This document shows, piece by piece, positions 1 through 53,670 of a stretch of DNA of 64,000 nucleotides (the stretch's first letter is position 1; every line of letters begins with the position of its first letter). A model generated the notes under the pieces. That model was not told the origin of the DNA. It was given only the letters and a program-made list of their open reading frames with translations, and searched no databases. Where the stretch lies: the NCBI RefSeq assembly GCF_000003815.2, contig NC_049988.1, forward strand, positions 13,670,909-13,734,908, in the 5' to 3' direction. The position numbers and the translations under genes are program-made. Source of the stretch: Branchiostoma floridae. Taxonomy: Eukaryota > Chordata > Leptocardii > Amphioxiformes > Branchiostomatidae.

Positions 1-3000
1 CTTTTCCACAGAATAATGTTGGTCTATGAATTGTCAAACATTCTCAAAGTTGATGAGAAGTCTGTGATAGAAAACGTAGTTACTTTAACCTGCAAATTTC
101 TTTCATCCAGATTGACCTGCAAGAGCCGACCCACGTGACCGGCTTCATCACCCAGGGCAAGCCTGAGACCAATGAGTTTGTCACCACCTACACTGTCTAC
201 TACAGCAACGATGGTGTCAACTTCCTGCCATACACTGATGAGTTCAACAGGCCTGTGGTAAGTTGGTTGATATTATTCAATTGTGAAGCAGTCATATTTT
301 CAGTCATACATCATTGTACATTTTTATGTTTAAGGTGGATAGAAAATAAAATAATTCTATTCTAACTCTAAATCTCCTTTTCTGTACCAGACCTTCACTG
401 CCAACAGTGACAGCACCACCCCAGTCACCAACCTGCTGGATGTGAACCGACCAATCACAGCTCAGTACTTCCAGATCCACCCAACAACCTTCAATGAGGA
501 CATCGCCATGCAGGTTGAGATTCTTGGCTGCAAGGGTGAGTTACAGTCATGTCTAGTTGAAAAAGTGCTTATTTTGAATATATTCTCTCTTTGTGTATTT
601 GTATTCTAATAGAAGATTAATTCAAATGTTACCTTGTAAATGCTTAACTTTGAAAGTTTTGACCAAAATATTGTTTTGTTGTTAACTTTACAGAGACCAC
701 AACTACCATTGCAACCACGACTCTTGGTACCACAACTACCAAGCCAGCTCAGACTGAGACCACCGTTGTCACCGGTACAACCGCTACAACCACCATTGCC
801 ACTGTGCCAACTGGTCAGACAACCACCACTGGTGCTTTCACACAGACCCAGCCTATCACCACCACCCAGGCTGTGGTCACTGAGACCGAGCCTGTTGTGT
901 GCAATGACTGGACTCCGTGGGTGAACATGGATACCCCTGCTGATGGTGGAGACTATGAGACAGTTGCTCAGCTTGTCCAGCTCTTCCCATTCTGTCAGGT
1001 ATGAATATCTGAGTTTGTGTCATCCAATACTTTAAAGCATTTGTGGGTCAATAATGCAGAGTTGTCAACTTCATTAGCATTGGTGTGATGAGACAGAGAA
1101 TGTACAAAAATGTATATTGGCTCTTCTCTTGATTATTGCTAGACTTGACCGTTGAATTTCACATTCCATATAGAGTTTGTGTCATATAGAATCAAAATGT
1201 TATTTTGTAAAATCAAGAATATCAACTACATCATATTAATTGAACAGTGGTGTGATACCTAGATTATATAGAGATGTACATTGTTCTTTTGACATAATCA
1301 TTTCCAGAGCTAATCATTGAATCACATATTCCACCCCACAGGGCATGCTCAGGGACGTGGAGTGCCGCCTTGTCGGCACCCAGACACCGTGGTTCTCCTC
1401 TGGAGACATGGGCGTGCGTTGCGAGGCAGCGTCCGGCTTGATCTGCGACGACTCCAACAACTTCCCTGTCAGCTGCCAGGACTACGAGATCAGGGCTTTC
1501 TGCGTCTGTGGTACGTTGATGAGCTCAGTACATCTAACTGAAAAATAGATGCATCATTCGTAGCTTTGGGATAATAACAGATTAGAGACGGAAACTGAAC
1601 ATGGCAGCTCAGTACATCAAGTAATTTCAGAAGTATACTGATCTCAACTGAAAAATAGATGCATGTAGCATTAGGACAACAAGAGAAGTATGCACTTCAA
1701 TACTCAACTCCATCTTAATTTTGAATGCCATAAATTCCTTTATCGATTGCTTTTATATGTGTTTTTAACCAATTTTTAATGTGATGCATTGTTTGGAAGT
1801 TTTAGTAATCATTCTTCTTCTCACAGCTACTACAGCTGTGCCCACAGTGACAATCTCCCTGTCCACCACACCGACAACCAAGCCAACCACAACACAGGGT
1901 AATGTTGATGGTGAAACACCAACAACAAGTAAGCCTTTGAAAACTATACCCAGTAATATGATATATGCCAACCAAGAAAACTTTTAATACAGACTTACAT
2001 AGAATCTTGGAAAATAAAAAGAAGCCAGTTTTAAATTGATAGGATTCTGGAATTTCATCAGCATTCTTAATCAGTCACAATCTGGATCAGCCATCGTAAG
2101 GCATACATTGTTTATCAAAAGTAATTTAAGCACTTAGATCTAAAAAACTAAGTTGATAAAGTACCCTCTCTATACTACATGTATTATGGCAAAGACCTCA
2201 TGTAACTGTGTTTCTTTGTTTGATCCATTACAGCCCTGAAGCCAGAGCCAGTGTGCACTCCCGACATGCATGGCTGGACTGACTGGATGAACGTGCACTA
2301 CCCGACCCCTCTCACTGGTGGAGATTTCGAAACTTATGACAACCTCAGGGACAAGTACGTACTCAGCTTTGCATTACAGAGATTCAGTTACTAGTTAGTT
2401 AGTTAGATTGACTATTGTTCAGTAAACCTATTGATGGATTCACAATACAAAAGCGTCTCAAGCAGCAGTTACTGTTTAAATCTTGTAAAGGGTCAGACAT
2501 TTCAGATAGCATCCACTATCTTTTGTCAGCCACTTTTCTTTTTGTTATGGACAAGAACAAGAAGCCTTAATTGATGATGTTGAGTCCTTAGTCTTACTAT
2601 CACCTTTAAAACATCTGAAGAAAAAAGCATTTACAGTACTAGTGTGGGATTCTTACTTTTGTTCACTTGCATTGTACAGGTTTGACTTCTGTCCAGAGGA
2701 TACCATCACAGACATCGAGTGCCGCGTGACTGGTGCCAACTTGGACTACACCATGGCTGGACAGACAGTTACCTGTGACGCCGCTGTTGGTCTCATCTGC
2801 AACGACAATGACCAGATGGGTCCAATGCCTAACTGCTTCGATTACGAGATCAGGGTCTTCTGTAACTGTGCAGGTAGGTGATATATAACCCTTTACCTTT
2901 ATTCTTTATTCTAGATCCTTAGAATAATAATTAAGACTTATGACAGAAAAGGGTTTCAGAACTTTGGCTGTAAGCTGCTAGTAATAACTGAAATTACCTA

Positions 3001-12000: not shown

Positions 12001-15000
12001 TTTTATGTTCTGAAAATCATGTCATCTTTGACTTTCTTTCTGTAGTTCACCACGACAACAATGCCTACCAAGCCTGTCACTGAGGCCACCACCACCACTG
12101 GTGTGTCCGACCAGACCTTCCCGCCAATGTGCGTTGTCAATGGATGGTCTCCGTTCATGAACGTTGACTCTCCTCTCACCGCACCTGGCGACCTGGAGAC
12201 CATCGATGCCCTGAGGCAGAAGTACACCTTCTGTGCCTACCCAGCCATGATCGAGTGCCGTACCGTGGACACTCAGCAGACTCCTCAGGTACATGTCAGC
12301 AATGTGGAAGATTTCACATCTAAAAATAGGGTCTTTCCAACTTTTCACCATAACCTTTCAATAACTAGCGGTAATCAATATAAAGTCATTTTCTACCAAT
12401 ACCTGTTCTAGATGATATAGGTGTTGTTGAACGGATATTAAATAGTATCCAGCAAGCTTTTTGCAGGCTACAAACAAGAAAAAAAAAAGGAATGTTAAAT
12501 TGAAACTCATAAATGAGTCTCCAGACAGCTAGAAAATGATAGGTCCTGTATGATTTGTGCTTCTTCCCTGTACTGTCAAGTAGAGATGTGTTAGCATTAA
12601 CTGTACTTTAATTTGCATTTGTTAACAGGATGCCGGAGAGAAGGCCACATGTGACCTGGTCAACGGCCTGGTGTGTCTGAACGAGGACCAGAACCTTGGT
12701 CAGACTTGCTCCGACTATGAAGTCAGTGTCTACTGTATCTGTGGAAGTGAGTACTATATCTCTATGATTGTTCCCACAACTATTCCTTCACTTCAATTGT
12801 TTGTACATCTTGTTGTCATAGGTTAGATCCTATGTTTTACATGTTTTACTTACGACAACTTTTGTTTCTTTCCCTCTTCAGCAACTACCCCACAGACAAC
12901 AATCACACAGACAGTTGTTACCACAACTGCCCAGACACCTGGCACCGCCACACAGACCATTGGTGAGACAACCACCATTGTCACAGGCACCACAACCGCC
13001 CAGACACCAGGCACCGCCACACAGACTGTTGTTGGTGAGACCACCACCATCGCCACAGCACCCACACCAGGCACTACAACAACTGCCCAGACACCTGGCA
13101 CCGCCACACAGACTGTCATCAGTGAGACAACCACCCTTGTCACAGGCACTACAACCGCCCAGACACCAGGCACCGCCACACAGACTGTTGTTGGTGAGAC
13201 CACCACCATCGCCACAGCACCTACACCAGGCACTACAACCACTGCCCAGACACCTGGCACCGCCACACAGACCGTTATCAGTGAGACAACCACCCTGGCA
13301 ACAGGCACTACAACAGTCCAGACACCTGGCACTGCCACACAGACAGTTATCAGTGAGACAACCACCCAGGCAACTGCCACTACAACTGGCCAGACACCAG
13401 GCACCGTCACACAGACCACAACAACCAAGCCTCCAGTCATCATCACCGACATCTTCACCCAGCCTGCCACCACCACCGAGCGTCCTCAGCCACAGATCAT
13501 CTGTGTTGAGGATGGCTGGACACCATGGATGAACTCCGATACTCCATCCACTGGCCCCAACAATGGTGACTACGAGATCATCCCTGTGCTGAGGTAAGTT
13601 GCTACCCCTAAAACAGAAATCAGAATCTGTAGATAGTTTCAGCCGGCTGGTATTTCAATTCAGACTTTTATTTTCCAAGAACCTTGTTTGTATTTCTACC
13701 AACATTTTGACAGCCACTATGCTTCATCATCAGGGCAAAGTAAACTTTCTTCATCTTTAAGTTGTTGTATTATGACATAATTATTCATAACAAGGATACG
13801 TTCTCCAAATGAATACCTCTCCTTGCCACTTAATAACAAAGCAGCATGGATTGAGTCTCAGTGACATTTCTGACTGTATTCTTGCAACTTTGCCATTCAT
13901 CAAAGAAAACAAGTCTTTCCAAAAGGTAGACAAAAATTGCCATATCGTAAGTCATCTTGAAACATGTACATTCATTTTATGAGACTCTAAGGATCCTGAA
14001 AATTTAATCTCTGGTTTACAATAATTCTACAGGGATGAGTATGCCTTCTGTGCCAATGAGATGATCGTGAGTGTGGAATGCCGCATCACTGGAACTGCCC
14101 AGAACATCGCTAACGGTGAGAATGGCGTGACCTGCACTGTCGATGATGGTCTGCGCTGCGACAACAAGAACATGGCCATTGGAGAACAGTGTGATGACTA
14201 CGAGATCAGGTTCTACTGCGACTGTGCTGAGGGTAAGTCATCCGTTGATGATGAATTTTTTTTTCTTCAATTTAGTGTTTCAAACAATAGACTACATTAC
14301 CAAAGGTCTATAGATTAATGTCTGATAATGCTGCTATTCAGAATGTGGCTTCGTTTGAAATTATATCACATGTATTCTCTAGATCTTCAGCTTTGTAATA
14401 GGTCTATGTTTATGCATTGATGTCCAATTAAAATACATGTACCTTCAACGTTGTCACAGAAACCACTGTTGCTACCACAACTATCGCAACTGCAACCACC
14501 ACCACCAAGCCTGGTGAGACCACCACCCTCGCAACCGCTCCTACTGCGACCATGACCACCACCCAGAAGCCTGAGGAGACCACCACTCTGGCCACCACCA
14601 AGCCCGAGGAGACCACCACCACCGCACAGCAGCCCACCACAGAGACCGGCATCTTCACCACCATCATGACCTGGTTCACTTCCACCGGCTCCACCACCAC
14701 ACCCAAGCCGGTCTCCACCACCCAGCTGCTCACCACCAAGCCGACTGAGACTCAGACGGTTCCAGAGACCACCGCCACTCAGGCAACCACAACCACAGGC
14801 AAGCCAACCACAGCCTCCACTACTACTCTCCCAGCCAACCCCGTCACTGAGACTCAGACTCTGGGCACCCTGCCAACCCTGCCAACTGAGACCTCCACTC
14901 TGCCAGGTGTCACCACCACAGCTACTGTCATCGATACTGAAGCCACCCAGACTGTGTCCATCGGAACAACTGGCAAGCCAACCACAACTCTCTCCACCAC

Positions 15001-30000: not shown

Positions 30001-33000
30001 AATTTTGTAGATATTGTATGAGAGAAAGCCACTATAAGAAGGCATTTTGCCAGCTATTCTCCCAGAGTTCTTGCATACAACTTATACATATATACAGTAG
30101 AAGTCTTGGGGAAGGAAGAGAAGTCTTCCTTCTTAAAAATACTGTTTTGAGAACTGAAGAAAAGAGAAAAGGAATATGATGATATTTCCCTTCATTAAGA
30201 CACACAGTGTGTGACCATGAATGTCGGATCATCTCCATGTACAGGGTATGTACTACCAGAAGCCTGATGGCCAGTGCTGCGGCGAGTGTGTCAACGACAT
30301 CTGCCACGAGGACGAGTTCCACTGCTACCTCGGCTCCGCCGGAGAGTGCATCCCGCTCATCTGGATGTGCGATGGCGTGCCTCACTGTACCAATGGAGAG
30401 GATGAGGACAAGTGCGAGACCACTCCACGTAAGTTTGCTTTTGCTGATGCTTTAATGCTTTGATAATGGGGGAAAGAATTTTAAAAACAAACCATATTAG
30501 AGCAAATCATAGTTAGAAACTTTATAATATATCAAACCTATGATTTAAATATTCAAATGTGGGTCACCAAAAAGGAAATGATTTTCATTTCACGTAACTT
30601 TGACTTGATGGAAGGGAAACACTTTGCAAAACCATCCGTTTGAAAGAGAAGCTTAGTTACATGAGACATTCATGTTTTCTCTTTCATGTTTTTACAATCT
30701 TCACATATCCAAAACAGTTATACCAGCAGTTTTGCCAGGGCCAAGTTGTATATAAACATCTGAAATACATGTATCTTCTTGTCTTTACTATAGTGCCCAC
30801 AACTACTCTGGCAACTTTCCCAACTGCAACAGCCACCAGCACCATCATCGGCACCCTGCCCACTGTCACTGCACCAACGACCGGCGTTGTCACCCAGACT
30901 GGCGTCGTCACAACAAAGCCTACCTCCTTCACCACGCTCATCGCTGGTGAGACTAGCACTGCCACAGTACCAATTGGCACAGCAACTGCGACTGTCACTC
31001 AGTCCACTCTGCCTACCGTCGTGATGACCACTGGCAAGGTAAGATACTAAGAATTAAAGTCATATCAAAAAGAAATTTTGTAAAGCTAGCTTTGATGAAG
31101 CTAACTTTTAGCTTTTATGAAACTTTTAGCTTCATCATATAGACAAGACTAGTATTAGATTCTGAATAAAGAGACTTTTTTTACACAACCATTGCTTCTA
31201 TTCTCACCAATGTTTTGGTGACCGTCTGTCACCTTCTTTAGGTAACCGAAACGTTGATGAGAATAAAAGCAATGGTTGTTCAAAAAAAGAGTCTCTTTAT
31301 TCAGTGACTTACCAACCTGTTGAAACTATTCACGGAAGTATTAGATTCTGTTTGTGTTTAGTTACTCCACCAACTTCAATATACCAATAAAACTAATTGT
31401 ACATGTTTTCCAATAGCCAATAACTACAACAATGGCCACCAAGCCAACCACCGTGTCCACGACCACCAAGCCAGCCGATGTGGGTCTCACCACCGCGGGC
31501 ACTCCCGTCCAGAGCGACCAGTGCGTGATGTACGAGGACACGACCTTCCAGACCTTCGACAACACCCTGTACGAGTACCCGATCTGCAGCCACGTGCTGG
31601 CCAAGGACTGTACTGGTGGACTCTTCCAGGTCATGGGTAAGTTCTACTTTCATGTCTTTTTGGATGGCATTATGCAATCGTACATGCCTTTTGTATAGTT
31701 GGCTTTACTTTTAACAGCAATATTTAAGTTTAACTCAAAGTACACATAGACTCACTTCTGAAGTGAAAGTTGTTTCCAATTTTTGTTGTGTCTTAGAATT
31801 GGTGTTAATATTGCCATATGAGTTTGTCATACATTTCTCACTGCTAAAAAATTCTGTATTTTTCTTTCCGTGTTTTATGAACTTTGAACATGTGATTCAC
31901 TCTTCATCATCTCGACAGCTGTCCTGGACTGCACCGGTGTTGACAACCGCCTGCTGTGCCGCCGCGGTATCGAAGTGGAGATCGGTGCTCACACCTTCTT
32001 CTTCGAGCGCATGAACTACTTCAAGTACAACGACAGGTATGTCATAGCACACAGTGTGCATTCTCAGATATTTCTTAACTCTAATTACTCTGCCAGTACA
32101 AAGCTAAGTCTACTTCTGCTAATCCTTACCTATGTGTCTGATTCCATTGAATTTGTAAATGTAACTAACAGTTTGTTTGTTTCTTTTTTGATAGGTTCGT
32201 GAGCTGGACCAACATCGATGCCTTCAACCAGGCTCTTTCTGCTGATGGTATCCACATCCAGAAGTACGGTGGAGAGATCATCGTCACCACAGACATCGGA
32301 GTCACCATCAGGTGGACCGAGCGCTACGAGGCCAAGGTATGTAAACAGCCTTGAGGTTACTAAAACCTGCATATGTTGCTGAAATCTCAAATTCTATTAC
32401 ATAATATACATAATTATATTATGGCCTACTTTGGTAGATATTGACCATAGTAAAATCCTAATTGGTATCAGCCCTACAGCCCTATTAGCCTCTGCGACAT
32501 AGGGCACATAGCTTTTCAGAATAATGATGCATTTAACAGTCAGAAGTTATATTATGTACTTTTAGGTACTTTATCACCACATGAATTAATAAAGTTCCTG
32601 CAATTGCAGCCAATTTTTATTCAAAATGTTGTTACACGAGTCTGAAGACCTTGTTGCATGACTGTTGTTTCATCTCCCGCCTCTTCTTTTCCTCCCTCCA
32701 GATTGAGGTGACCCCAGCCCTGCACAACCAGCTGTGCGGTCTGTGCGGACCCAACAACTACGACCCCACCGACGACTTCATGATGCAGTCCGGCGTCCTG
32801 ACCTCTGACGTGACCGCCTTCGGAGACAGCTGGTCCACCGGAGACAACACCTGCCCCGAGGCTGTGGCTCTGCAGAGCTGCCCCATCGAGATGATGGTGG
32901 AGGCCCAGGCCAAGTGTGACATCCTCAGGTCAGTCACCCCACCACCTGTCAATCAACCGCACAACCTGTAACCCAATACTCATGGGTTACACCCAGGGGT

Positions 33001-36000
33001 GTCTTCAAAACTCGTCTTTTGATCCCGGGATGGATGTTTGCTTGTTGGGATGGGAAAAAAATTGTATCCCGTCCATCTGAAAAAGCTTAACTTAATGACA
33101 TGAAACTGTTGAAAATGCAAACAACGAGTGTGTGAGAAAATAAATTTAGGCTGGATACAGCCCAGGTTACACTCCTGTGTTCCGACACTCCTAACAAAGA
33201 GATGTCGGAACATAGGGACATCACTACATTGTACATTGGGGCATCAGAACATAGGGCCATTTGTCTCACAACCTACATTTTTGTATCAGCTATTGCTAGA
33301 CCTAAAATGCCCGGATATTATCATTACTGACTAGATGCGTATTGCTTCATCTTCATCTATCATATAAGCTCTTACTTTTATGTTTTCTTAATGGTTTTTG
33401 TAACTATTTCCCTTCAGGAGTGATATCTTCTCTGCCTGCCACCCATACATCGATGTGGAGATCTTCCACAGGCTGTGTATGTCTGACGTGTGCCAGTGTC
33501 TGCAGTCCGACCTTGCTGCCCAGGTATAAATATGTCATAATATGTCTTTTACTACTTTCACAGAATCTAAGGCAATGCTAGGACTAGTCATATAAGATTT
33601 TAGATGTGTGATCTGTGTTTAAAACTTGTAAACCTGTAACCCTTTGCTTCTATTCACTTATAACTGTGAACTTTTCAGTAACTAAGTCATTATATAAGCT
33701 TAAATTTTTGTACACATATTATCAAGCATACTAATTTAGCAATTGCATAGTTCCACATGGTAGCATCCCTGAAATTGTAAGTACATGTAGCTAAGCAACA
33801 CAAAGGCAGAGAGTGGATTTGATGATACCATGATTTACTCACCAGGCTGCCGGTGTGGCTGACTGTGAGTGCGACGCCCTGTCCGCCTACAGCCGTGCCT
33901 GCGCCCAGCATGACATGAACGTGGTTCTGGACTGGAGGAATCCTCTGCGCTGTCGTAAGTACTCCAGACTGTGTTACTACAGATATCAATGTCTCTAACA
34001 AAGCCATTAGAAAACAAAGTAGTACATTAACTATAGTTTAAACTAAAGCTTGAATGACAAAACTATATTGTGGTTAAGTCATTGTTTGGATTACAATTTG
34101 AATATGGCATTGTTGCACAGATTGTTTCTGTAGATTTATTGTCAGGAAAATGTATCTGATTTTAAAAAGAAAAGGCTCTGTGTTAACGCAACAAGAGAAC
34201 ATTGTAGTAGAATTATTGTGAAGAATTATCTATGGCATTGCAAATTATAGCATGCCTGTATCTGTCAATTTATTGTCTTTAAGATATATATCAATTTAAA
34301 AAGAAGAGTTTCTCTGTTAACATGACAAGACTATATTGTAGTAAAGAATCTGTAGTAAAGTACTACTAAAAAATTAAAAAAATTACTGTAAAGAATCACT
34401 GATTGTGTGTGACGTTAAGGATTGTGGCATACCTGTTTCTTTCAATTGTTATGAGGAAAAGATATTGATATATAGATTTTAAAAGGTTGTGTGATACTAA
34501 CTATTTCATACTGCCACAGCTGCCGAGTGCCCACCGGGTATGGTTTACCAGGAGTGTGGCTCTGCCTGCCCGTACACCTGCGCCAACATGCACGACCCCA
34601 CCCACACCTGCGACCAGCCGTGCGTCCAGGGCTGTGTCTGCCCCGACAACATGGTGCTGATGGGAGACGAGTGTGTCAAGCCTGACATGTGCACAGACTG
34701 TAAGTTCTTACGCAATCCTTACAACTTTCAAACATTGCATATAGATAACTACATATACTTAGGTTCAACAAGGACATATAGTTCTTACAAAATACTTCTT
34801 ACCCTCAAAAACATTACCTTATGATAACTACATTTTATTTACTTAACCATAGTTAGTTTAGGAATGACTTATAAAAAGAGCAAAGCTGACATGCGCTCAG
34901 ACTGTAAGTTCTCACACAATCTTTCCAACTCTCAAACTTTACTGATAGTAACTGTATAAGCTTGATTAATTTTGTCAAGGATGAATAAAAAGTAAACCTG
35001 TCATATGCACAGACTGTACATCCTTACACAATCCTTCCTACTCTCAAACATACCCTATAATAGTTTCATTATCTCCAGGGTAATTTTTCTCGACATCATC
35101 AAGATACATTTTAGCTTAGCAATTATATATAGATACAGAAGATACATGTATGTCATTCATATACTAGCATATGAAGTCTGTGTCATAAGTTAATTCTGAC
35201 TTAAACTTTCATCTCCCAGGCTTCTGCTATGGCTATGGTGATCCTCACTACGTGAGCTTCGACGGCACCTACTTCCCCTTCCAGGGTAACTGCACATACG
35301 TGCTGTCCAGGGACATGACCACAAGAGCACATGACTACGAGGTATGCTTAATATGCTCTTCTTTTTCTAGTTGTATTAATAAAGATCTCCCTTTCAACAC
35401 TGTGTTTAATGTTTTGCTAACCATTGAAAGTACAGCTTACTAAGAGTAATACCAAGGCTACTCAGATGTCATTACAGCCATTTTCATGTGAACCTCGCCT
35501 CACCTTACCTGAACCACCACTTGAGTATCAGTAACAAACCTGTGCCCCCCTCCCCTCTCCAGGTTCTGGTCCACAATGTTGAGTGCCACTACCAGCAGCG
35601 TGGAACCTGCACCAAGGCTGTGACTGTCCGCCATGCTGGCCACGAGGTCACCCTGATGAACGGCCGTGTGGTAAGTTTGACATTCCCTTGAAAAAAAGGT
35701 TTATTCACTTTTAGAACCAGATTAAACTGCCCATGGTTATAACCTACCACTTGCGTACATTTAGTACAAGGCGTGTAAGACCATGTTTATCTGAATTGGA
35801 AGCGTTTGTGTCATGCAACATCTCTCCTCTGCTTAACCATCTGTCATTAAAAACATTTTTGTCATTAAAAACATTTTTAATGTTTTGTTACTCAAGTCGT
35901 TCATCTACTGTTTTACATGGTTCTAAGTTTAAATCTATTGCAAGACCATTCCCAAAGCCTAATTGCAAACAAAGTAAAACAGTAGAATACAGAATTGTTA

Positions 36001-39000
36001 TAAGCTCACATCCACTAATTCCAAACCTGTTAAGGCTAACTGTTACACATATAACTTGTTTCCTGATGCTTATGTTGACTCAAACCCTGACAGGGAACAA
36101 TAGTAAGTCTAAAACTTGTCCTGTGTCCTGTTGTGCAGGTTAAGGTTGACGGTGCCTACTCCCATGTGAACTACAACGCACCAGTGACCACCCAGGGCAT
36201 GGAGGTGCGTCTGGCCGGTCTGCAGCTTGAGCTGAAGATCCCCACCCTCAACATCATCGTCACCTTCAACGAGATCAACCATGGTTTCAGCGTCCAGGTG
36301 CCAGTGTCCCGCTACTACGGCCGTACCGAGGGTCTCTGTGGTACGTACATGTGCCTGAAGTGTGTTGTTGATAATGATATGTCAAACACTGTGAATAATG
36401 TGGGAGAATATTTCTCTAATGGTAATGAAGATTGATCTCAACCCATTCTTTTCTTGATGCTTCTGGCCATACAAGATGTAAATGCCAAAGCATGTAGTTG
36501 ATTGCTGAACACAATGTTACTGACCTATTCAGTAGTACCAAAATCCAACTAAGACAAAGTAGACTTGATGGTGGAAAAGATTTTCTACAAAAGTTTAAAA
36601 TCTCCACTTCTTTTTAACTTTCAGGTCCATGCGACTACAACCAGAACAACGACTTGACCATGCCTGACGGAGCCATCTCCAGCATCCCTGATGAGTTTGG
36701 CTTCAGCTGGCTCACAGGATTCCCAGGTACGAAACCACTTCTGCAATCAGTACTGTTTACATGTGGAACTTGCCTACAGGTTTTACACTGGTTTGATGAT
36801 CAAAAGATGACCCTAATTTGTATTTGGTTTGGCTTACATGTGTAGAAGTCTTCCTAAAGGGTTTTTTCCTGGTTTTGGAGTTTGATAGCTTTATAGCTTT
36901 TCCATTGGATGTCAAATGCTCAGTGAAGGAAATTTGACTTTCTTTAACTTTGACCTTATTCAAGTTGCAACAAGAACAATACACTAGGCAGCAGGCTAGA
37001 AGGGAGAAGTTAATCATTAAGTAGACCTTTAAAGTATTCATCACAAATGGGAGTAAGAAACAAGGTAAAACGTCTACAATGTCTAGTAGTGACAAATATT
37101 GATATGTCCATGTTGGTACTACAGGTGGTATCCCAGAAGAACCAGGCACCCTGCCATACGAGCCATTCCAGGGACCAGACGAGCCCGTCACCGGTACCCC
37201 CGAGGAGTTCTGTCAGATCCTGCCCGCCACCTTCCCGCCAAACGGTGTCTGCGATGTGCCAACCGACCGCTGCGAGGTACGCTCGTGTGCTATCTATGGG
37301 GAAGCAGTGTATCTCAGACTATGAATAAAACTTTTTTGTGATAATACATTCATACATGTATGTAACGGCCAGGCTTTTGACATTTAAAGACATCACTGGA
37401 AGTAAAAAACCTGCAGGATCTTTAACATTACAATTTCAGAAATATCATGTGACAAAATTTTAAGCAAACGTACAGTCATACAACTGCAGTTTGTAGCTTG
37501 GGAAGCTTTGAAGACCCACTTGGTCTCTTTTATCAACCCATTAGATTTTAGAGTTTCCTTGTCATGTGACAAAATATCTTTCATAGTAATAAATTGCAAA
37601 TAGAAATCAACCAAATTTTGATGCCATGTCAGCTGTCCATTTCATGTACTTCATTGGCTTGTGGACATAGATTATAACTGACCATAAAATGCTTTTTTCC
37701 ATGGTTCAGGTGATCCGTGGTCCACTGTTCGAGGACTGCAACCTGCTGATCAACCCCGACACCTTCGTGGAGGCCTGCATCTTCGACGTCTGCAACTCTG
37801 ACCTGGACACACCCGAGGACCAGGCCTGTGATGCCATCGCTGCCTACGCCCAGATGTGCCTGATGCAGGGCATCTGTGTCGACTGGAGGGACGACAGTCT
37901 CTGCCGTAAGTTACCAGATCAATGGGGTCGATTTGTGATTACTTCTACTGGCAGCATTTCTTTTCCAAAGTTCGTAAGCCTAAGTTGTCCTGTTCCAGTA
38001 AGTTATAGCTAACACCCTTTTGCAGAAGTCACCAGGCAATGGTCTATTTATCTCATTATTGTCATTTTGAACCAATTGTGCACTCAAAAATTCTTGATGT
38101 TGTCATGTCTGACACTGATAATCGAGACAAACAGGATTTTGATAAAGCAGTAAAGCTAATGTGACATAATTGGACCAGTAGAGATATTCTTCCTTATTGA
38201 TTAAGTACATCTGTACAATGCAATATGCATAGCCAATGATAATCAAAATTCTATTCTCTCCCTCAGCGATCCACTGCCCGGCACCAATGGAGTTCACCGA
38301 GTGCGGCACCGGCTGCCCTGCCACCTGCGACGACCCCACCGCCCAGAACTGCGACACCACCCTGCCTGGCTGCTACTGTCCTGATGGCATGGTCCTGCAT
38401 GAGAACCAGTGTATGGCTCCAGAGGAGTGCCGTAAGTAGCCCATATCTTACACTGTACAGCTACAATACAATCTGGATGGTAGAGTTTTATTTTACACAA
38501 CCAGTTGATATTACCTGGTGACATTTTGATGCCTATCAGACATCTTTCTCATAGCTTCTAACTGGAATTCTGCATTTCTGCAATTCTGATATTTGAAAGT
38601 GAAATTCAGCTGATATGAACTATAATTTCTCTCTCCTCACAGCTGTGTGCTTCGAGAAGGACGGCACTGGATACATGGTAAGAGACTCTTGAATGTGTTA
38701 TTTTCTCTTATTATCTTCAAACAATGCACCCCTAAATTGTTCAGAGTAGATATTTGTGAACCTTGAAGATACATGTACAAGATATCAGTGTACCAAGCAT
38801 AGATATGGAATTGTTTTCTAAGGAATGTCCTGTCTTGTCCCCCAGCTTGGTGAGACCTGGAACCCAGCTGGTGACGTCTGCACCGTCTGCACCTGCGCGG
38901 CTGCCGGCACCATCACCTGCTCTCCCAAGTCCTGCCCGACCTCCACCACACCTGTCTGCGGAGATGGCATGAAGGTCGACACTCTCCTGACTGACGACAA

Positions 39001-42000
39001 CTGCTGTAGCATCGAGATCTGCACATGTAAGTGTCAATCAAAACTCTACAATCAGAACAGCTGAAGGATCACAAGCTCATCTTCGTAATGGCTTTGGTTT
39101 GGAACAACAAAGAAATTTAATAAACTGTTACATGTAGTCTTTGCTCTATATTTACTGTAGATATTCCCATCATGACATTTTGCTCCATAGTGGAAATTCT
39201 ACAGAAGACTGCTTCATTATTGTGCATATCTCTTTTAGATTACTCACAATGGTGACCTTAACAGTAAGGTAGTGGGTTTCTGATTTATAATTATTGTTCA
39301 AGGTATATGCTATAGTATATGACATTGATACATACATAAATTTCTGTCATAGTTTGATGTCCATCCAGAAAACCAAGATTCAGACCCAAGAATGTAAACT
39401 AATGGGTTATCCTTTCTGTTCTCAGTGTGTCTGGACTCTGACTGTCCGTTCCAGCCTACTGCACCTACCTGTGCTCTGGGCGAGACACTCATGGAGCTGT
39501 ACTCTAGCGACTGCTGCAAGAACTACACTTGTGGTGAGTGGACAAGGCATAATACTTTCCAACTTGGTGTAACGACCACTTGCACAAGACGACCATCGCC
39601 TCAAGACAACCTCTTTTTGATGGTCCAGAAATTTTCCCCCTGTACACACAAGCATTAAGCAATATGCTGAGGGCAAACACCTATTTGGGGCTGCAAGTGT
39701 ATATTGCAGAAGATGACTGCACCATTTTCAAGGTTGTAGCGCCATTGATATTGAATAACTTGTAGAAGATAAAATTGTACCTCCAAGAATATATCCTTGA
39801 TACAGTCAACACTATTGTCTGAAAAAACACTTCATGCAGAGGAAATATGGTCTGCAAGTCTTACACATCTTAACATCTGATGAATATGACATTGTGATAA
39901 CTGCTTCCATCACTTTTCAATTATCATCCAAGAAAAGAGAAATCTTATTAACAAGTTCACGTAGTAAGTGTTTATTCCTTTGTTTTCCCAACGTAGTCTG
40001 TGACGCATCCAAGTGTCCTCCTGCTGACATCCCCAGCTGCGACGCCACTCAGGGCCTGACTCTGTCCGTGGACAACACCCAGTGCTGCGCTCAGTACTCA
40101 TGCGGTATGTACCATTCCTGCTTCTGTCTGAAAATGTTCCCTTGAGGAATTTGTCATTTTTCTCATAGGCCCAAAAAAATTGGATGCAGATTTTTTAATG
40201 ATTGGGTAAAGATTTTCCTTGCATTGATGAAATTTATTCCAATCTTCCCACAGAGTGTACCACACCGCCTGCTGTACCGACCTGCCAGCCGGTAAGAACA
40301 TCATCCATCTTTTGTTCCTCATAGCACATGTAGATAATGAATATGCACATTTATACCTTATATCATCATCTAACTATGATATACTGGAAAAACTCTGTAA
40401 TGTTAACTGTAGTATATGTATAGCTTTCCGTTTACTCCCTTTGTTCCACACTGACTACATTTAGCCCCAATGGGGCATGAATATGCAATAAACTTCATTG
40501 TCATTAAAGTAAAAATCTGATACAAATTGCATCAGAAACAGTATAATATGTACAGTATATTGCAATAGGTGAGAAGAATTTTAGTTACAATTTTGCCTTA
40601 TTACATAATGGCCTAGTGTTTCTGTGTACTTAACTGTTTTCTCCAACCCTCCAGTTCTTTGAGGTCCAGGCTACAGGCGTCACATCCTGCGGATTCTCTA
40701 CCTATGACTGTAGTAAGTTTTTTTGGATGATAACAGTCTTTTTGCTCACATGTGGTTTCATACATTTGGGCATTATTTAGTTATCCATTTGGTGCCATCA
40801 TAAACCAAAGTTTCAAAATGTTTACTTATAAAATTCCAGGTATAGCATTTTCATATTTCTCTAACTTGAAGTTGCAATTACCATTTCTCCAGGACCACCA
40901 CTGTTTTTCATGCATGGTTTCGTACATTTGGGCATTTCCTTACAGTTGTCCATTTGGTGCCATCATAATCCATTGCCCTTAGAAATAAAGCTCTGTTTGA
41001 AATGTTAATATGCCATAATTTCCATGATAATAAAATTCCAGGCATAGAATTTTTATATTGATAATTTCTCTAACTGAAAGTTGCAATTACCATTTCTCCA
41101 GGACCACCAAGTGAGGGCTGTGTGCATGACAACCAGCTGTACACTGTAAGCAGACTTCTTTCTTTACTTTATCTTGTGGTAAAAGAAAAAAGTACTTCAC
41201 CATGATAAGCATTGTTATGTATCTGCAATTAACTCAGAAGCTCTATTGGTGCTACATGTACCTACATGTACCTATCCTGACAGCATGTAACGCTTGTTCA
41301 CCTTTATCCGTAGGGTAACCTTTATCCGTTCCTTTTTAAGAACAATGTATTTAGGGATATCAAGTTGACAGAAGGTGGTTTCAAACTGCAATATTTTGAA
41401 AATAGTACAATTTGAAACTGCTGTACCATCCATCGACTTGATACCCTTTCGGAATGCCCTATTTAGCGATACAATGGATATAGGTTACCCCGCGGATAAA
41501 GGTGAACTAACGTTATGCAAAGAAATCAACATTTTTGTATATTTTACATATTGGCCTACTTATTGTAATAAAAAAAGACAAAGAATAATCTCATGAGTGT
41601 TCATGGGTGCTGGTTTCTCTAATGTTCCTTTTGGACTAAATTTTGCTCTTTGTGCACAGCTTGGTGAGATGTGGGCTCCAGACGTCTGCACGGTGTGCCG
41701 CTGCAGCGAGCAGGCCAGCGCTAACGGAGAACACGAGGTCTTCTGCGAGACTCAGAGATGCCCAACTGCCGCCGACTGTCCTGCAGTAAGTATCTCTGAA
41801 ATCAAAACAGATCCTGTGTCTGTTCTCTCTCTGTAGATGTCCCTGATTTGTATTGCTTAAACTAGTTAAAGTATTCAACAGAAAAAAGTAAATCTGATGG
41901 TTACACCTTTGATGTTTTGCCACTATATCTAAATTAGACAAATTTGCCTGAGATGGCTGGGTCAAGGACTTTAAGAAAATTTTGAAAAATTATGACATTT

Positions 42001-44160
42001 GACAAGCTAATTGGACCTTACAACTCATGTCTGTTTGGTGTTTCAGGGCTATGAGCTGGTGATGATTGGTGGCGAGTGCTGCGGTGAGTGCAGACAGACC
42101 CACTGCTCTGTCCAGATGGACGGACAGGATCAGCCTCAGCTCTACGCTGTAAGTACATCATCAACATGCTCTGATACAAACCATTGTCAAACTACAGCTC
42201 TCACAAGTTAACGTTCTGAAGTGATTGGTCATCAGTATTGATCCTGAAGAAGGCAACAGTGGTCATTGAAAATTTGGTCTTAGTTTAGCATTGTACTATA
42301 ATGATTACTACCAACACAGATGAGCTTCAATGATAAACTACAGCTAGTATACAGTCCAACCTGTCTATAGTGACAGCTCAACTGGCAGCAGTATACAGTT
42401 GGCAACTGTAGGCAGGATGCTTAATAAGTCAATGTGAAAATTTATCCTTTTGCAGAAGCAAAAGCTTGTACAGGTTTGACTATTAATAGTATGTTTCTAT
42501 ATGAACCATGAATAAAGAAAAGTGAATGAATGTCTATAATGAAGCTCTGCCTGCCTGCTGGTACTTAGGCCAGGGACTGGCCCCTTGCTCCTCTCCATCA
42601 GGAAAGGTATTAAAAATATTAAATTTTAGGACACATTTCACTGTACAAAAAATAATCCATGCATGTGTTTTCCCCAGGTTGGAGAGACCTGGACTGTGGA
42701 AGGCTCCTGCCCGCAGGAGGAGTGTGTGTGCATGGAGCAGTACGGCCGCCCGTACACAACATGCAGCACCACAACATGCCCAGACATCACAGGCTGCCCA
42801 CAGGTCAGTCACCACAACATTCTCACTTTCACAAGACATAGATGAATATTGTGTTTAGGAGGCACCTTAAAGATTGGTACTCCCTCAATAGTATAGTAAG
42901 TGGTAATTGTGTATTGAGAAATTTGTATCCCTACAGTAACTGTTGCAGCTCAAAGTCTGAATATTACTGCATATATATAAATTTAAAACAGGCAAATCAT
43001 AAAAATAGAAATACTTATAAAAGTAGTACAAATAGCACAAAAAGGTACAAATATATATACATAAATATTGACCATCAAGTTCTTAAGATGGAGAACATCT
43101 TGTAACTTTTGACTAAATCCCATTAGAAACTTTGTGTTCTGTACTGATGTGTTTTTGTTGCTCTGTTCTTACAGGAGTTCATCGCTATGGATGAGAATGG
43201 ATGCTGCCAGATCTGCCAGGGTACGTTTCCAAAATTCCATTTTCTATGTTCCTCACTTGTCATTTTCAATGTCTTAGAGTTAGACCACACAAATTTGTTA
43301 TTCAAACATCTAAGGGAAAAGACTCAGCTGACTAAGTTCATTCCCTGAAACTGTGCATACCAATTTGAAAGTACATGTCCTTCTCCTCATGTTCTTTTTA
43401 TCGAAGAAAGGACAAGAGAAATTTGTCTTGCCTCAGCTATATAGCACTGAAATAACTCAAAAGTGAAATGAACAGAATATTCATAAGATTATCTTTATTG
43501 TGTTTATAACAGAGACCAGCCACGGCTGCAGTGCTGTCCTGAAGGAAGGTCATCCACAGAAACTCAAGGTCGGCATCTGTGAATCCATCGTGGAGGTCAA
43601 CGTCACCGAGTGTGAAGGTCGCTGCGGCTCCTCTACATCTGTGCTGTTCCCAGACGACTACTCACAGGTAACCTCAACACTCCGGATAGGATTCTAAAGA
43701 CTTGTCAGAGTCAATACGAATTATCTCCTGAATTTGTCTGGACTGATTGCTGTAAGGATTTCTGAATTATACTGAAGGGGCACTTTCTATGATAAGCCAT
43801 GCAAGGATCCAGTTGTCTGGATTTTTACTGAGATCTTTTGCAAAACTTTTAAATGTGTCAACAATAGCTTTTCTTTAGTAATAGTAGCATTTCTTTTATG
43901 AGAAAATTGGACTGAAAAATGGCCAGCACAATGTCGAACGAGTCATTTGGGTTTTCACAAGCGTTAATCGACTGCTTGTTTTTCTCTTCCCGCAGCCTCA
44001 TACATACCAGGAGAACTGCAACTGCTGCAAGCCGACCAAGACCGAGCGCCGCCAGGTGGACATGGTTTGCGAGGACTTCACTCAGGTCGTACACGAGTAC
44101 GACGTGATCATGGAGTGTTCGTGCGAGGCCTCACAGTGCGTCCAGTGGTCTCAGCCGTAG
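1..44160 (+). CDS. Giant gel-forming mucin-like protein (CysD / F5/8C / vWD-C8-TIL / VWC / CTCK), 5' incomplete
   Basis: Predicted secreted, Thr-rich mucin that polymerises through cysteine-rich ends. I placed 89 GT-AG exons from 111 to the stop at 44158-44160; the start codon and signal peptide lie upstream. Exon phases agree throughout except at 20020-20163 and 21691-22004, each one base short. Visible coding length is about 18.97 kb. Domain order: F5/8C; twelve CysD with Thr-rich spacers; seven F5/8C; CysD; TIL/VWC/LDLa block; vWD-C8-TIL; vWD(GDPH)-C8-TIL; VWC-like series; CTCK. The C-terminal half follows the MUC2/MUC5/VWF plan, and CysD modules are known from MUC2, MUC5AC and MUC5B. F5/8C tandem units inside a CysD mucin are unusual. 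Introns (roughly 100-700 bp) are AT-rich and hold no other gene that I see. Exon lists are given in the module entries. The orthologue name is uncertain, so no symbol is given. Confidence 0.9.
111..535 (+). other. Mucin exons: F5/8C (discoidin) domain 1, C-terminal part
   Basis: Exons 111-257 and 391-535. The protein reads [16 protein letters not shown], then [15 protein letters not shown], then [16 protein letters not shown], ending VEILGCK, which is the second half of a discoidin fold. The N-terminal half must lie upstream of the window. Unlike units 2-6 and 8, an intron splits this domain just before IDLQEP, as in divergent unit 7 at a slightly different codon. Confidence 0.85.
694..1510 (+). 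other. Mucin exons: Thr-rich segment and CysD domain 1
   Basis: Exons 694-998 and 1342-1510. About 65 residues of Thr-rich sequence lead into a CysD (Mucin2_WxxW family) module with WTPW, GDYETV, FC and the closing [12 protein letters not shown]. In this and most later CysD modules one intron falls after the FC(Q/E) segment, dividing the domain in two. Confidence 0.85.
1827..2873 (+). other. Mucin exons: short Thr-rich linker and CysD domain 2
   Basis: Exons 1827-1928, 2234-2354 and 2680-2873. The first exon may instead end at 1898; both donors keep the phase, but gtaagc at 1929 looks stronger. CysD 2 has [23 protein letters not shown] and [11 protein letters not shown]. Confidence 0.82.
3092..4335 (+). 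other. Mucin exons: Thr-rich segment and CysD domain 3
   Basis: Exons 3092-3508, 3737-3909 and 4180-4335. The first exon codes about 139 residues dominated by TTT, TKP and TQ words. CysD 3 carries WTPF in place of WxxW and closes with [12 protein letters not shown]. It is a close duplicate of CysD 4 at 5399-5874. Confidence 0.85.
4572..5874 (+). other. Mucin exons: Thr-rich segment and CysD domain 4
   Basis: Exons 4572-5106 (about 178 residues of Thr-rich repeats), 5399-5571 and 5719-5874. The CysD has [15 protein letters not shown] and [12 protein letters not shown]. The exon pair copies the preceding CysD 3 almost word for word, so this is a tandem duplication. Confidence 0.85.
6078..7426 (+). 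other. Mucin exons: Thr-rich segment, CysD domain 5, second Thr-rich segment
   Basis: Exons 6078-6252, 6549-6713 and 6863-7426. CysD 5 opens [11 protein letters not shown], with phenylalanine at the second Trp position, and closes [11 protein letters not shown]. The last exon runs straight into about 140 Thr-rich residues with a repeated [20 protein letters not shown] block. Confidence 0.84.
7790..8435 (+). other. Mucin exons: CysD domain 6
   Basis: Exons 7790-7957 and 8298-8435. The module reads [30 protein letters not shown] and [11 protein letters not shown]. It is most similar to CysD 5, which has the same YWTPF and DNGDHEP words. The donor gtctgt at 7958 is weak but keeps phase. Confidence 0.82.
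8627..9980 (+). other. Mucin exons: Thr-rich segment and CysD domain 7
   Basis: Exons 8627-9293, 9493-9598 and 9833-9980. The first holds about 205 Thr-rich residues and ends in the CysD start with WTSWMNLDR. The rest reads [19 protein letters not shown] and [12 protein letters not shown]. This domain is split by two introns, one more than the typical CysD here. Confidence 0.85.
10305..11066 (+). other. Mucin exons: Thr-rich segment and CysD domain 8
   Basis: Exons 10305-10648 and 10937-11066. A Thr/Ala-rich stretch leads to [24 protein letters not shown], and then [13 protein letters not shown] (CTAC)n run lies in the following intron at about 11170-11190. Confidence 0.85.
11438..12746 (+). 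other. Mucin exons: Thr-rich segment and CysD domain 9
   Basis: Exons 11438-11847, 12046-12288 and 12629-12746. The first exon contains a 170-base block (11492-11661) identical to 14862-15031. CysD 9 has [20 protein letters not shown] and [12 protein letters not shown]. Confidence 0.85.
12882..14232 (+). other. Mucin exons: [11 protein letters not shown] repeat segment and CysD domain 10
   Basis: Exons 12882-13593 and 14033-14232. The Thr-rich part is an array of an approximately [11 protein letters not shown]-type motif alternating with (V)xxETTT words, repeated about seven times. CysD 10 has [24 protein letters not shown] and [11 protein letters not shown]. Confidence 0.85.
14460..15620 (+). 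other. Mucin exons: Thr-rich segment and CysD domain 11
   Basis: Exons 14460-15131 and 15396-15620. The Thr-rich exon carries the second copy of the 170-base identical block (14862-15031). CysD 11 has [26 protein letters not shown] and [11 protein letters not shown]. Confidence 0.85.
15901..17201 (+). other. Mucin exons: Thr-rich segment and CysD domain 12
   Basis: Exons 15901-16397, 16641-16754 and 17006-17201. About 165 Thr-rich residues contain a repeated [20 protein letters not shown] block. CysD 12 has [26 protein letters not shown] and [12 protein letters not shown], with a longer loop than its sisters. Confidence 0.84.
17408..18285 (+). other. Mucin exon: long Thr-rich (PTS) segment
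   Basis: This single 878-base exon codes about 292 Thr-rich residues. It is the largest PTS exon in the window and joins the CysD region to the discoidin region. Words such as [16 protein letters not shown] and [14 protein letters not shown] recur from earlier PTS exons. It ends with VEVCQ, the lead-in used before each F5/8C unit. Confidence 0.85.
18434..19414 (+). other. Mucin exons: F5/8C domain 2 and Thr-rich linker
   Basis: Exons 18434-18748 (315 bases), 18961-19105 (145) and linker 19332-19414. The domain opens [18 protein letters not shown], continues [17 protein letters not shown] and [10 protein letters not shown], and closes LQFEPLGC. It is predicted to be an extracellular discoidin fold binding glycan or lipid; the ligand is unknown. 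The linker reads [17 protein letters not shown] and ends DVCQ. Confidence 0.88.
19546..20487 (+). other. Mucin exons: F5/8C domain 3 (one-base deletion) and linker
   Basis: Exons 19546-19860, 20020-20163 and 20405-20487. The second exon is 144 bases where all sister exons are 145. One base is missing at about 20117 (cacaggattc against cacaggacttc). The shift would bring a stop in the next unit near 20790. It may be an assembly error, a null allele or an exon that is skipped. Confidence 0.8.
20596..21577 (+). other. Mucin exons: F5/8C domain 4 and linker
   Basis: Exons 20596-20910, 21102-21246 and linker 21444-21577. The first exon differs from that of domain 3 by a single base (PFLE against PFLQ), while the introns are dissimilar. 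Lengths and phases are normal. Confidence 0.87.
21691..22787 (+). other. Mucin exons: F5/8C domain 5 (one-base deletion) and linker
   Basis: Exons 21691-22004, 22171-22315 and linker 22564-22787. The first exon is 314 bases instead of 315. One a is missing at about 21790 (ctgaacacaagcc against ctgaacaacaagcc). The linker is Thr-rich and ends PETTVCQ, the same ending as the linker before domain 8. Confidence 0.8.
22960..23788 (+). other. Mucin exons: F5/8C domain 6 and linker
   Basis: Exons 22960-23274, 23389-23533 and linker 23669-23788. Both of its introns closely match those of domain 8 (26897-27010 and 27156-27289), so these two units are a recent duplication that includes introns. Confidence 0.87.
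24227..25488 (+). other. Mucin exons: F5/8C domain 7 (divergent)
   Basis: Exons 24227-24387, 24789-24926 and 25344-25488. It is recognisable from [64 protein letters not shown] and MRVEILGC. The sequence differs clearly from the homogeneous sister units and keeps an extra intron, so it is probably the older form. Confidence 0.85.
25857..26395 (+). other. Mucin exon: [14 protein letters not shown] repeat segment
   Basis: One 539-base exon of tandem Thr-rich repeats. The core words [25 protein letters not shown] and TTTLATA recur many times with few differences. A matching array lies at 27290-27682. It ends VPETTVCQ before F5/8C domain 8. Confidence 0.86.
26582..27682 (+). other. Mucin exons: F5/8C domain 8 and Thr-rich segment
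   Basis: Exons 26582-26896, 27011-27155 and 27290-27682. This is the last discoidin unit and near-identical to domain 6. The Thr-rich exon that follows repeats [10 protein letters not shown] and [10 protein letters not shown] words and ends LISTLPYE. Confidence 0.87.
27886..28476 (+). other. Mucin exons: CysD domain 13
   Basis: Exons 27886-28006 and 28298-28476. The motif is degenerate (IIWAPYVN), but [22 protein letters not shown] and [11 protein letters not shown] place it in the CysD family. It is isolated from the other twelve, sitting between the F5/8C array and the D-assembly. Confidence 0.75.
28912..30428 (+). other. Mucin exons: Thr linker, TIL/VWC-like cysteines and LDLa domain
   Basis: Exons 28912-29144, 29677-29799 and 30245-30428. 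A short Thr/Ala linker precedes a TIL-like segment ([24 protein letters not shown]). A VWC-like part follows ([10 protein letters not shown], then GQCCGEC). The block ends in an LDL-receptor class A module ([23 protein letters not shown]). Its acidic calcium-binding pattern is only partly canonical. Confidence 0.78.
30794..34699 (+). other. Mucin exons: Thr linker and first vWD-C8-TIL assembly
   Basis: Exons 30794-31038 (Thr linker), 31417-31636, 31919-32036, 32195-32336, 32702-32928, 33418-33523, 33846-33954 and 34520-34699. The vWD starts [20 protein letters not shown] and ends [16 protein letters not shown], with the CGLC motif known from multimerising D domains. C8 runs from CPIEMM to NPLRC. 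TIL has [18 protein letters not shown]. There is no GDPH in this vWD. Confidence 0.85.
31162..31304. repeat. Palindromic MITE in a mucin intron
   Basis: The left arm ctgaataaagagactttttt continues with acacaaccattgctt. The right arm is its near-perfect complement, ending agtctctttattcag. The core holds accaatgttttggt and aaccgaaacgttgatgagaa words. There is no open frame. Confidence 0.72.
35220..38431 (+). other. Mucin exons: second vWD (GDPH)-C8-TIL assembly
   Basis: Exons 35220-35341, 35563-35670, 36139-36340, 36625-36726, 37125-37276, 37710-37905 and 38267-38431. The vWD opens [20 protein letters not shown], very like the MUC2/MUC5AC D4 start. GDPH is the site of autocatalytic Asp-Pro cleavage in those mucins. 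The domain ends [15 protein letters not shown]8 has [10 protein letters not shown] and TIL has [18 protein letters not shown]. Confidence 0.87.
40751..41111 (+). repeat. Tandem duplication in a mucin intron including the splice acceptor
   Basis: Two successive copies of a segment: tacatttgggcatt, ccatttggtgccatcataa, aaattccagg(t/c)atag, and ttgcaattaccatttctcca followed by ggaccacca. The second copy ends in the real acceptor of exon 41102-41145. The first copy at about 40893 is a decoy acceptor with the same exon start. Confidence 0.75.
41297..41512. repeat. Palindromic MITE in a mucin intron
   Basis: Left end gttcacctttatccgtaggg and right end ccccgcggataaaggtgaac are inverted copies. The interior has ttcaaactgcaatattttga against atagtacaatttgaaactgc. 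It lies in the intron before exon 41660-41785. Same family as the two CBR intron copies. Confidence 0.7.
43513..44160 (+). other. Mucin exons: C-terminal cystine knot (CTCK) and stop
   Basis: Exons 43513-43667 and 43996-44160. The pattern [20 protein letters not shown], then [19 protein letters not shown] and [10 protein letters not shown], is a CTCK. In VWF and mucins this domain makes the first C-terminal disulfide dimer. The protein ends VQWSQP and a tag stop at 44158-44160. Confidence 0.9.
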
Positions 44161-44859
44161 TCTCCACATGGCAATCCTACAAGGCAGCACCACGATCGTT
44201 AATATAGTTAATATTAGTAATTCCTCACCGTAGTTTTCCCTTCATTGTCATTTTCAAGTATTCCCTATATTTGCATTTTAAAGCTTCCTCCATCGTGTTT
44301 TAAGCCCTACAAATGTTCATCACAACGACCTGCCTTTTGAGGGGCAGAAAAAAAATATAAGTTTTTTGTTGTAGATATTCAAGAAACACCGGTAGATTTT
44401 ATGTTGAACTATTTTGTGTTGGAAGTTGGCAAAAACTGTAATGTAGCGCATAAGAACAAACCGTGTTCCCAAAAAAAGAATTGGTGAGGAAATAGAATGA
44501 ATATGAATTTATGCAAACCAGTGTCTGTCATTTCTGCGTTGTCGAATTCAGTGTTGTGAAAATGGATGGATGGATGGATGGATGGATGCTTGGATGGATG
44601 GATGGATGCTTGGATGGATGGATGGATGGATGGGTGGGTGGATTGATGGAAGGGTGGATGGATGGATAAATGGGTGGGTGGGTGGTTGTATGGATGGATG
44701 GATGAATAGAGGAGGGAGGGATGGATGTAGGGAGGGAGAAAGGGATGGGTGGACAGATGGGTGGATGGACGGACGGACGGAGGGAGGGAGGGATGGATGG
44801 TGGGAGGGTGTGTGGTTTGGATGGATGGGCAGGTGGACGGACGGACTCCCTTAATGTCA

Positions 44860-44895
<36 letters not shown>

Positions 44896-44930
44896 AAAAA
44901 AATAAAATGATGCTTAATAATGTGTACATT
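44161..44930 (+). repeat. Mucin 3' UTR with GGAT minisatellite and GA run
   Basis: Non-coding after the mucin stop. From about 44560 to 44860 there is an imperfect (GGAT)n tract with interruptions, then (GA)n at about 44871-44894. A possible aataaa poly(A) signal sits at 44901-44906. An open frame on the other strand here is only the repeat read as PSIHPSIHP. Confidence 0.7.
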
Positions 44931-45461
44931 GATTTATTCTCTGTACCCATATATCTATTTGATGAACGGAACTAGCTGAGAATCAGCCCCACAGAAGAAA
45001 AGTTTTCTAGTTCCCCTTTGAGACACTACTGGTAACTTGCCTCTTTCCTTTATTGTTTGAAAATTCTAGATGAAAGCAAACACAGACAAGGTTTAAGTAG
45101 TGATTGTTTATTTCGTTTCATACCATTGAAGCTTACCCACATGTACAGTTGTAAAAAATCCAAACTTCTTGTGTTAAGATTATTTACTACAAAAATAAGT
45201 CACTTCAAGCAATAGAAAGATGTCATAATATACCTTCATCACGCAAGAATATTGAAAGAATGAATGAATGAACACCTTTATTGTGCATTTTTGCCCAACT
45301 GAGCTAACTACAGGTCACAACAGAGACAAGATATACATAATAGTATCATAGACCTAGTCTAACATAGAATATTGTCATCTACATCTACGTGAAACCAAAA
45401 CATAGTGACTAGTCCTCTCTAGTGTTCACCATGATACACAATCTTCTGGACGCCCATTGCT
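44931..45461. other. Intergenic: reverse-oriented retroposon-like tail and CBR 3' flank
   Basis: No gene is seen. At 45255-45300 the complement reads as a gggcaaaaatgcacaataaa-type tail ending in an ATTC repeat, like the 3' end of a retroposon in minus orientation. It could also supply a poly(A) signal for the upstream-lying minus-strand carbonyl reductase gene. Confidence 0.4.

Positions 45462-53572: not shown

Positions 53573-53670
<98 letters not shown>

Follow-up and report, generated by a model that had tools for sequence, protein, structure and literature searches.

Gel-forming mucins of the MUC2, MUC5AC and MUC5B type carry CysD modules among Thr-rich spacers and end in a D4-type VWD-C8-TIL assembly with a GDPH motif, followed by VWC repeats and a CTCK domain. 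The vertebrate CysD has ten cysteines. To our knowledge, an array of F5/8C (discoidin) domains and an LDLRA module are both absent from the vertebrate gel-forming mucins. CysD arrays and long Thr-rich spacers are likewise not known from hemocytin and hemolectin. The number of CysDs in human MUC2, MUC5AC and MUC5B is given as 2, 9 and 7, respectively (PMC11912381), and the combination of CysD with PTS regions has been described as a deuterostome one (PMC9169620). In the tunicate Ciona, the gel-forming mucin Ci-GFM1 shows that an invertebrate chordate can insert extra binding modules in a VWF/MUC2 frame, in this case chitin-binding and fibronectin type II modules (PMC6109156).

Discoidin domains are found in a different set of proteins. 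Hemocytin and hemolectin of insects are described as VWF-like chains with one or more discoidin domains homologous to factor VIII, and loss of the hemolectin discoidin is reported, with reference to another paper, to abolish bacterial aggregation (PMC4015701). The sea star protein Sfp1 is a chain of 3853 residues that combines four discoidin domains with VWD and C8 (PMC7037938, PMC9382459, PMC10057474); it has additional EGF and lectin domains, and the passages that deal with Sfp1 report no CysD. Sea urchin nectin is built of six consecutive discoidin domains and nothing else (PMC7037938, PMC9382459, PMC10057474); galactose and GlcNAc are their reported ligands (PMC7037938). Lastly, SCO-spondin is a giant chain with VWD-C8-TIL, LDLRA and CTCK, in which LDLRA lies beside VWD-C8-TIL, as it also does in the limpet protein P-vulgata_3 (PMC7333891). 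Discoidin together with VWD-C8 is thus already known from hemocytin and Sfp1, and CysD and Thr-rich regions together with D4-VWC-CTCK from MUC2 and MUC5. Among the matches listed in a literature search of open-licence papers, none described a chain with both CysD and F5/8C.

A predicted 89-exon gene and its controls

The locus described here lies in a 64,000-nucleotide stretch of DNA from Branchiostoma floridae (the window). In our gene model, 89 predicted exons on the plus strand at 111–44160, the same number as in an earlier note on this DNA, form one chain encoding one modular protein, with 88 introns and 6,323 letters including the stop (about 6,320 residues). The chain is truncated at its 5′ end by the window edge. 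The gene is seen from F5/8C unit 1 on; the exon or exons for the start of this unit and everything upstream, with any N-terminal signal peptide and D1-D2-D′D3 region, lie outside the window. Gaps between exons have a median of 275 bases and a maximum of 565 over the whole predicted gene.

The model was built with a dynamic programme combining splice-site weights and codon log-odds, which was run on the plus strand of 1–44400. A first pass gave 85 exons and, after retraining of the splice weights, 88 exons were obtained over 111–44135 with a score of 4381. By hand, the terminal exon was extended to the stop at 44158–44160, one VWC exon was restored and one acceptor was moved; two frame-broken exons were translated with X at the break. 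Against the score of 4381, the reverse complement reached 85 (37 exons), the downstream region 44400–64000 reached -10 on the plus and -5 on the minus strand, and ten dinucleotide shuffles ranged from -10 to 3. With a second codon model, trained on the low-Thr exons of the gene model, the real strand scored 3541 and the reverse complement 247 (45 exons), with -6 and -2 for 44400–64000 and -9 to -2 for the shuffles. Since the window itself served as training data for the codon and splice weights, the real strand is favoured and the contrast with the controls inflated; despite training and testing on one sequence, the size of this contrast is not in doubt. Reverse-strand genes under the array were considered as well, and the weak chains found there with the two codon models were taken as an echo of the plus strand.

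All 88 introns have GT-AG ends, which is not independent evidence, since the programme demands AG acceptors and GT donors (GC being allowed at a penalty). The introns are in phase 0 in 41 cases, in phase 1 in 41 and in phase 2 in six, and phase agreement is weak support for one chain. The statement in the earlier note that all exons link in phase does not strictly hold, as exons 20020–20163 and 21691–22004 are each one base short compared to their sister copies. An Rfam scan gave no matches and an ARAGORN scan no genes.

The stop codon is followed, after about 400 bases, by some 60 ATGG-like units with higher-order periods of 20 and 72 bases (44562–44846), and by an AATAAA at 44901–44906 on the plus strand, a possible poly(A) signal that is one of 26 AATAAA in 1–45500. 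Further downstream, nine direct-repeat pairs at 46210–57177, 82–96% identical and 5.7–6.2 kb apart, reveal a tandem duplication of about 6 kb. A minus-strand exon for a short-chain dehydrogenase (PF00106) is present in both copies, at 47555–47854 and 53839–54165 (two of the eight scanned ORFs matched). A perfect run of 46 CT dinucleotides occupies 53576–53667.

Module composition compared with known chains

A Pfam search of the spliced protein, the check proposed in the earlier note, was run at E 0.01 on ten segments that together span the regions other than Thr-rich spacers, and matched CysD, F5/8C, VWD, C8, TIL and VWC. From 5′ to 3′, the chain consists of the cut F5/8C unit 1, CysD1 to CysD12 alternating with Thr-rich spacers, F5/8C units 2 to 8 with Thr-rich spacers, CysD13, a Cys-rich stretch, LDLRA, a Thr-rich spacer, two VWD-C8-TIL assemblies in succession, VWC repeats and CTCK, with the stop ending at 44160.

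All thirteen CysD domains that had been claimed are matched by PF13330 (Mucin2_WxxW; seven of seven and six of six), which gives CysDs among PTS regions as in MUC2 and MUC5, in a number above the 2, 9 and 7 of the human proteins. CysD1 to CysD12, together with their spacers, are encoded at 694–17201, and CysD13, the most divergent one, in which the motif reads WAPY, at 27886–28476. Within the limits set for the count, each of the thirteen has eight cysteines, compared to ten in vertebrates. WxxW is kept in seven CysDs and replaced by WxxF or WxxY in the other six, a loss that counts against a mucin reading. The closest pairs are CysD3 and CysD4 (88% identical) and CysD5 and CysD6 (60%). For CysD11, the closest solved relative is MUC5B (8oer, E 1.9e-14), and all seven PDB chains listed are MUC5B, MUC5AC or MUC2.

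The PTS regions typical of a gel-forming mucin amount, by our own criterion, to 2,629 residues in 21 runs. Their presence had been correctly noted, their extent underestimated at 1500–2000 residues. Most runs contain about 45% Thr and only about 3% Ser and 7% Pro, and one run of 39 residues within the sum is Ser-rich rather than Thr-rich. A long exon at 17408–18285, between CysD12 and F5/8C unit 2, is Thr-rich by composition. Tandem repeats occur in the Thr-rich exons at 12919–13366 (159-base units) and 25865–26327 (96- to 165-base units), and are likely sites of length variation between individuals.

The eight F5/8C domains that had been proposed, a run of seven between CysD12 and CysD13 and one at the window start, are all matched by PF00754. 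Unit 1 (111–535) is cut by the window at its 5′ part and covers profile positions 39–126 only (E 1.3e-17). Units 2 to 8 and their Thr-rich spacer exons are encoded at 18434–27155, with unit 2 at 18434–19105, unit 3 at 19546–20163, unit 4 at 20596–21246, unit 5 at 21691–22315, unit 6 at 22960–23533, unit 7 at 23669–25488 and unit 8 at 26582–27155. The related model PF22633 gave matches as well, and a few models were matched below their cut-offs. Units 3 and 5 were scanned with X at the break, as alignment and straight translation show that a single base is missing from the second exon of unit 3 (20020–20163), breaking the frame, and from the first exon of unit 5 (21691–22004), where the straight frame then hits a stop. 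The programme bypassed these breaks by means of two acceptors, one shifted (20425) and one internal (21858), a choice that would give unit 3 an altered tail and leave unit 5 without its first third. As this part of the array is near-identical, the breaks are likely sequencing or assembly errors, with real decay as a possibility. The other six units show no break, for unit 1 in its visible part.

The first exons of units 2, 3, 4, 6 and 8 differ pairwise at 1–12 of 105 residues and at 0–10 of 47–52 fourfold sites; between units 3 and 4, one residue differs and the fourfold sites are identical (52 of 52). In units 2, 3, 4, 5, 6 and 8, the introns that separate the paired exons are 49–65% identical in 14 of 15 pairs, the one outlier being units 6 and 8 with 84%. 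For comparison, 25 unrelated intron pairs show 47–60%, and five of the 14 F5/8C pairs are slightly higher than this. Because the exons are nearly identical while the introns are close to the level of unrelated ones, the pattern suggests that exon-limited gene conversion has kept the exons alike while the introns drifted. Units 1 and 7 diverge more than the others.

In the PDB, unit 6 finds its best relatives in pseutarin C, which is a factor V-like chain from venom, in factor VIII and in the neuropilins. When unit 6, the one unit of the eight that was aligned in this way, is compared to factor VIII C2, the two loops to which the membrane spikes are assigned are shorter in unit 6. This would speak against phosphatidylserine binding by this unit. 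It had been proposed that the array supplies multivalent glycan- or lipid-binding sites; for the one unit aligned, the lipid part is not favoured.

Following CysD13, the exons at 28912–30428 have a Thr-rich start, continue in a Cys-rich stretch and end in an LDLRA module (exon 30245–30428; PF00057, E 1.9e-08), matched once and absent from the earlier note. The Cys-rich stretch looks TIL- or VWC-like to the eye; Pfam (at 0.01) and PDB (at E 1) searches gave no match for it. A further Thr-rich spacer lies in 30794–31636, in the last exon of which (31417–31636) the first VWD starts. LDLRA and the VWD assemblies recall SCO-spondin; membership in that family was rejected, since TSP1, of which SCO-spondin has many repeats, had no match in the ten segments scanned from the window.

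The two VWD-C8-TIL assemblies and the VWC repeats claimed for the C-terminus were recovered by Pfam (VWD, C8 and TIL twice each). In single-stretch scores, assembly 1 (31417–34699) is closest to MUC5AC 8r1z (89 bits), which we take to be a VWD3 assembly, followed by VWF D2 (77 bits), D1 (70) and D3 (48); the best FCGBP assembly reaches 59 bits and the MUC2 chain 7qcn 33.5. Judging from these scores, assembly 1 resembles D1–D3 of VWF and the mucins more than their D4. Assembly 2 (35220–38431) contains GDPH and is D4-like: together with VWC, its best single match is MUC2 7qcl (query 1–457, 179.4 bits), compared to about 114 bits for the best single FCGBP assembly and 93 for VWF D3, both over shorter stretches. 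This agrees with the MUC2/VWF-like C-terminus that had been described. The total score of FCGBP is the highest in both searches, because FCGBP has many assemblies. The D1–D3-like assembly lies directly 5′ of the D4-like one, an adjacency in which the chain differs from the vertebrate gel-forming mucins. The GDPH of MUC2 VWD4 has been reported to be self-cleavable at acid pH (PMC10082768).

VWC repeats follow at 38643–43220 (PF00093, three stretches), and the CTCK domain with the stop codon is at 43513–44160. Pfam reported no cystine-knot model at E 0.01 for this region; in the PDB search, the chain end matched the VWF CTCK 4nt5 (E 3.8e-12), with ten of ten cysteines coinciding within the aligned stretch, which bears out the claimed CTCK. 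The chain thus ends in VWD-C8-TIL, VWC and CTCK, like the gel-forming mucins. VWD assemblies and discoidins occur in one chain, like in hemocytin and hemolectin, provided that there is one transcript.

One transcript or several

Banyai and colleagues report that unusual domain architectures in lancelets have often turned out to be errors of gene prediction (PMC6071037), a caution that applies to this locus. Two or more adjacent genes could have been read as one, such as a mucin with CysD and F5/8C followed by a VWF- or hemocytin-like gene, or a gene starting at 1784, which would split off F5/8C unit 1 and CysD1. As the module ends are mostly in phase 1, a chance join between neighbouring genes would often preserve the phase. 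From the last F5/8C exon (27155) to the first VWD exon (31417), the gaps contain four AATAAA and four ATTAAA, roughly double the mean density, although such hexamers occur all along the gene (26 AATAAA and 21 ATTAAA, 47 in total, in 1–45500). Internal starts were sought by scanning the plus strand of 1–44400 for an ATG with a hydrophobic stretch and a donor, which gave three hits, at 1784, 23300 and 26922; the same scan gave one hit on the plus strand of 44400–64000 and 27 on the minus strand of 1–44400. The minus strand was dropped as a control and replaced by a count of ATGs per exon, since the minus strand of Thr-rich DNA is GT-rich and codes for Val. The hits at 23300 and 26922 were rejected, as both fall in equivalent introns, those of units 6 and 8, and enter the following exon in a frame other than that of the protein. 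The ATG at 1784 (score 3.54) is in frame with the Thr-rich exon 1827–1928 and opens a strongly hydrophobic stretch, so that 1784–1928 is possibly an alternative first exon with a signal peptide, or else a chance reading of a pyrimidine tract. An in-frame ATG 8–40 codons 5′ of the acceptor precedes 14 of the 88 internal exons, and the hydrophobicity cut of 2.3 is passed by three of these 14 (exons 1827, 3092 and 17006). Exon 30794, between the F5/8C and VWD regions, has an in-frame hydrophobic start at 2.26, just under the cut. Hydrophobic starts in three of 88 internal exons are to be expected from pyrimidine tracts, and exon gaps that never exceed 565 bases leave little room for a gene end and a promoter. 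Taken together, the several-gene explanation, in either form, is considered unlikely, and a single transcript for the whole chain quite probable.

A putative mucin with a discoidin array

The explanation we favour, and hold to be somewhat more than an even chance, is that one giant gene, of which the window contains the 3′ part, encodes a secreted relative of the gel-forming mucins, with multivalent glycan-type F5/8C sites and chains paired by CTCK. It is supported by a coding chain far above the controls with thirteen of thirteen CysDs and eight of eight F5/8C units, by the agreement of all ten CTCK cysteines with VWF and a MUC2-like D4-VWC end with GDPH, and by the MUC5B, MUC5AC and MUC2 chains that make up the listed relatives of CysD11. 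The mucin-type architecture that had been proposed, with CysD, Thr-rich spacers and a D4-VWC-CTCK end, is supported by the Pfam and PDB searches. A gene that is real and carries a partly decayed F5/8C array, with units 3 and 5 as skipped or truncated pseudo-units and a unit number that varies between individuals, is improbable in our judgement: both single-base deletions lie in the near-identical part of the array, and the unconstrained programme kept the frame through the acceptors at 20425 and 21858, but six of eight units show no break and an error of sequencing or assembly in such an array would yield single-base deletions too.

The chain might instead be a hemocytin-like clotting or adhesive protein, or a relative of Sfp1, in which discoidins bind cells or bacteria in clots or glue. 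Hemocytin and Sfp1 do combine VWD with discoidin, four of them in Sfp1 (PMC4015701, PMC7037938, PMC9382459), and LDLRA adjoins VWD-C8-TIL in SCO-spondin and P-vulgata_3 (PMC7333891). Thirteen CysDs and some 2,600 residues of Thr-rich sequence are features of mucins, however, and of the solved chains MUC2 comes closest to the D4-VWC end. We regard this possibility as unlikely.

If the gel-forming-mucin reading is right, disulfides of the CTCK would link the chains in pairs, as they do in VWF and MUC2, while the Thr-rich spacers would bear dense O-glycans and swell, and the CysDs may form weak contacts within and between chains. The rows of F5/8C units, doubled by CTCK pairing, would then provide the gel with multivalent sites for a ligand. 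Phosphatidylserine membranes would be less probable ligands than glycans, whether these sit on microbes, on food particles or on other components of the mucus. Binding of glycans or microbes is preferred because binding of galactose and GlcNAc has been reported for the discoidins of nectin (PMC7037938), and a stop of bacterial aggregation for hemolectin that has lost its discoidin (PMC4015701). Lancelets are described as filter feeders using nets of mucus that come from the endostyle (PMC6109156), and a polymer of this kind would be well placed there. More tentatively, the chain may represent a separate class of deuterostome mucins, in which a row of discoidins, kept alike exon by exon, is built in a CysD/Thr-rich gel polymer that captures microbes or food.

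The near-identical F5/8C exons with their diverged introns provide a test case for exon-limited homogenisation. If the whole chain is one transcript, a mucin polymer frame has taken in an entire array of recognition modules, comparable to the VWA domains of VWF and the chitin-binding domains of Ci-GFM1, and a link of clotting or adhesive proteins to mucus mucins in early deuterostomes becomes open to testing. If it does represent a separate mucin class, the chain would connect two lines of the VWD superfamily, hemocytin/Sfp1 and MUC2/MUC5.
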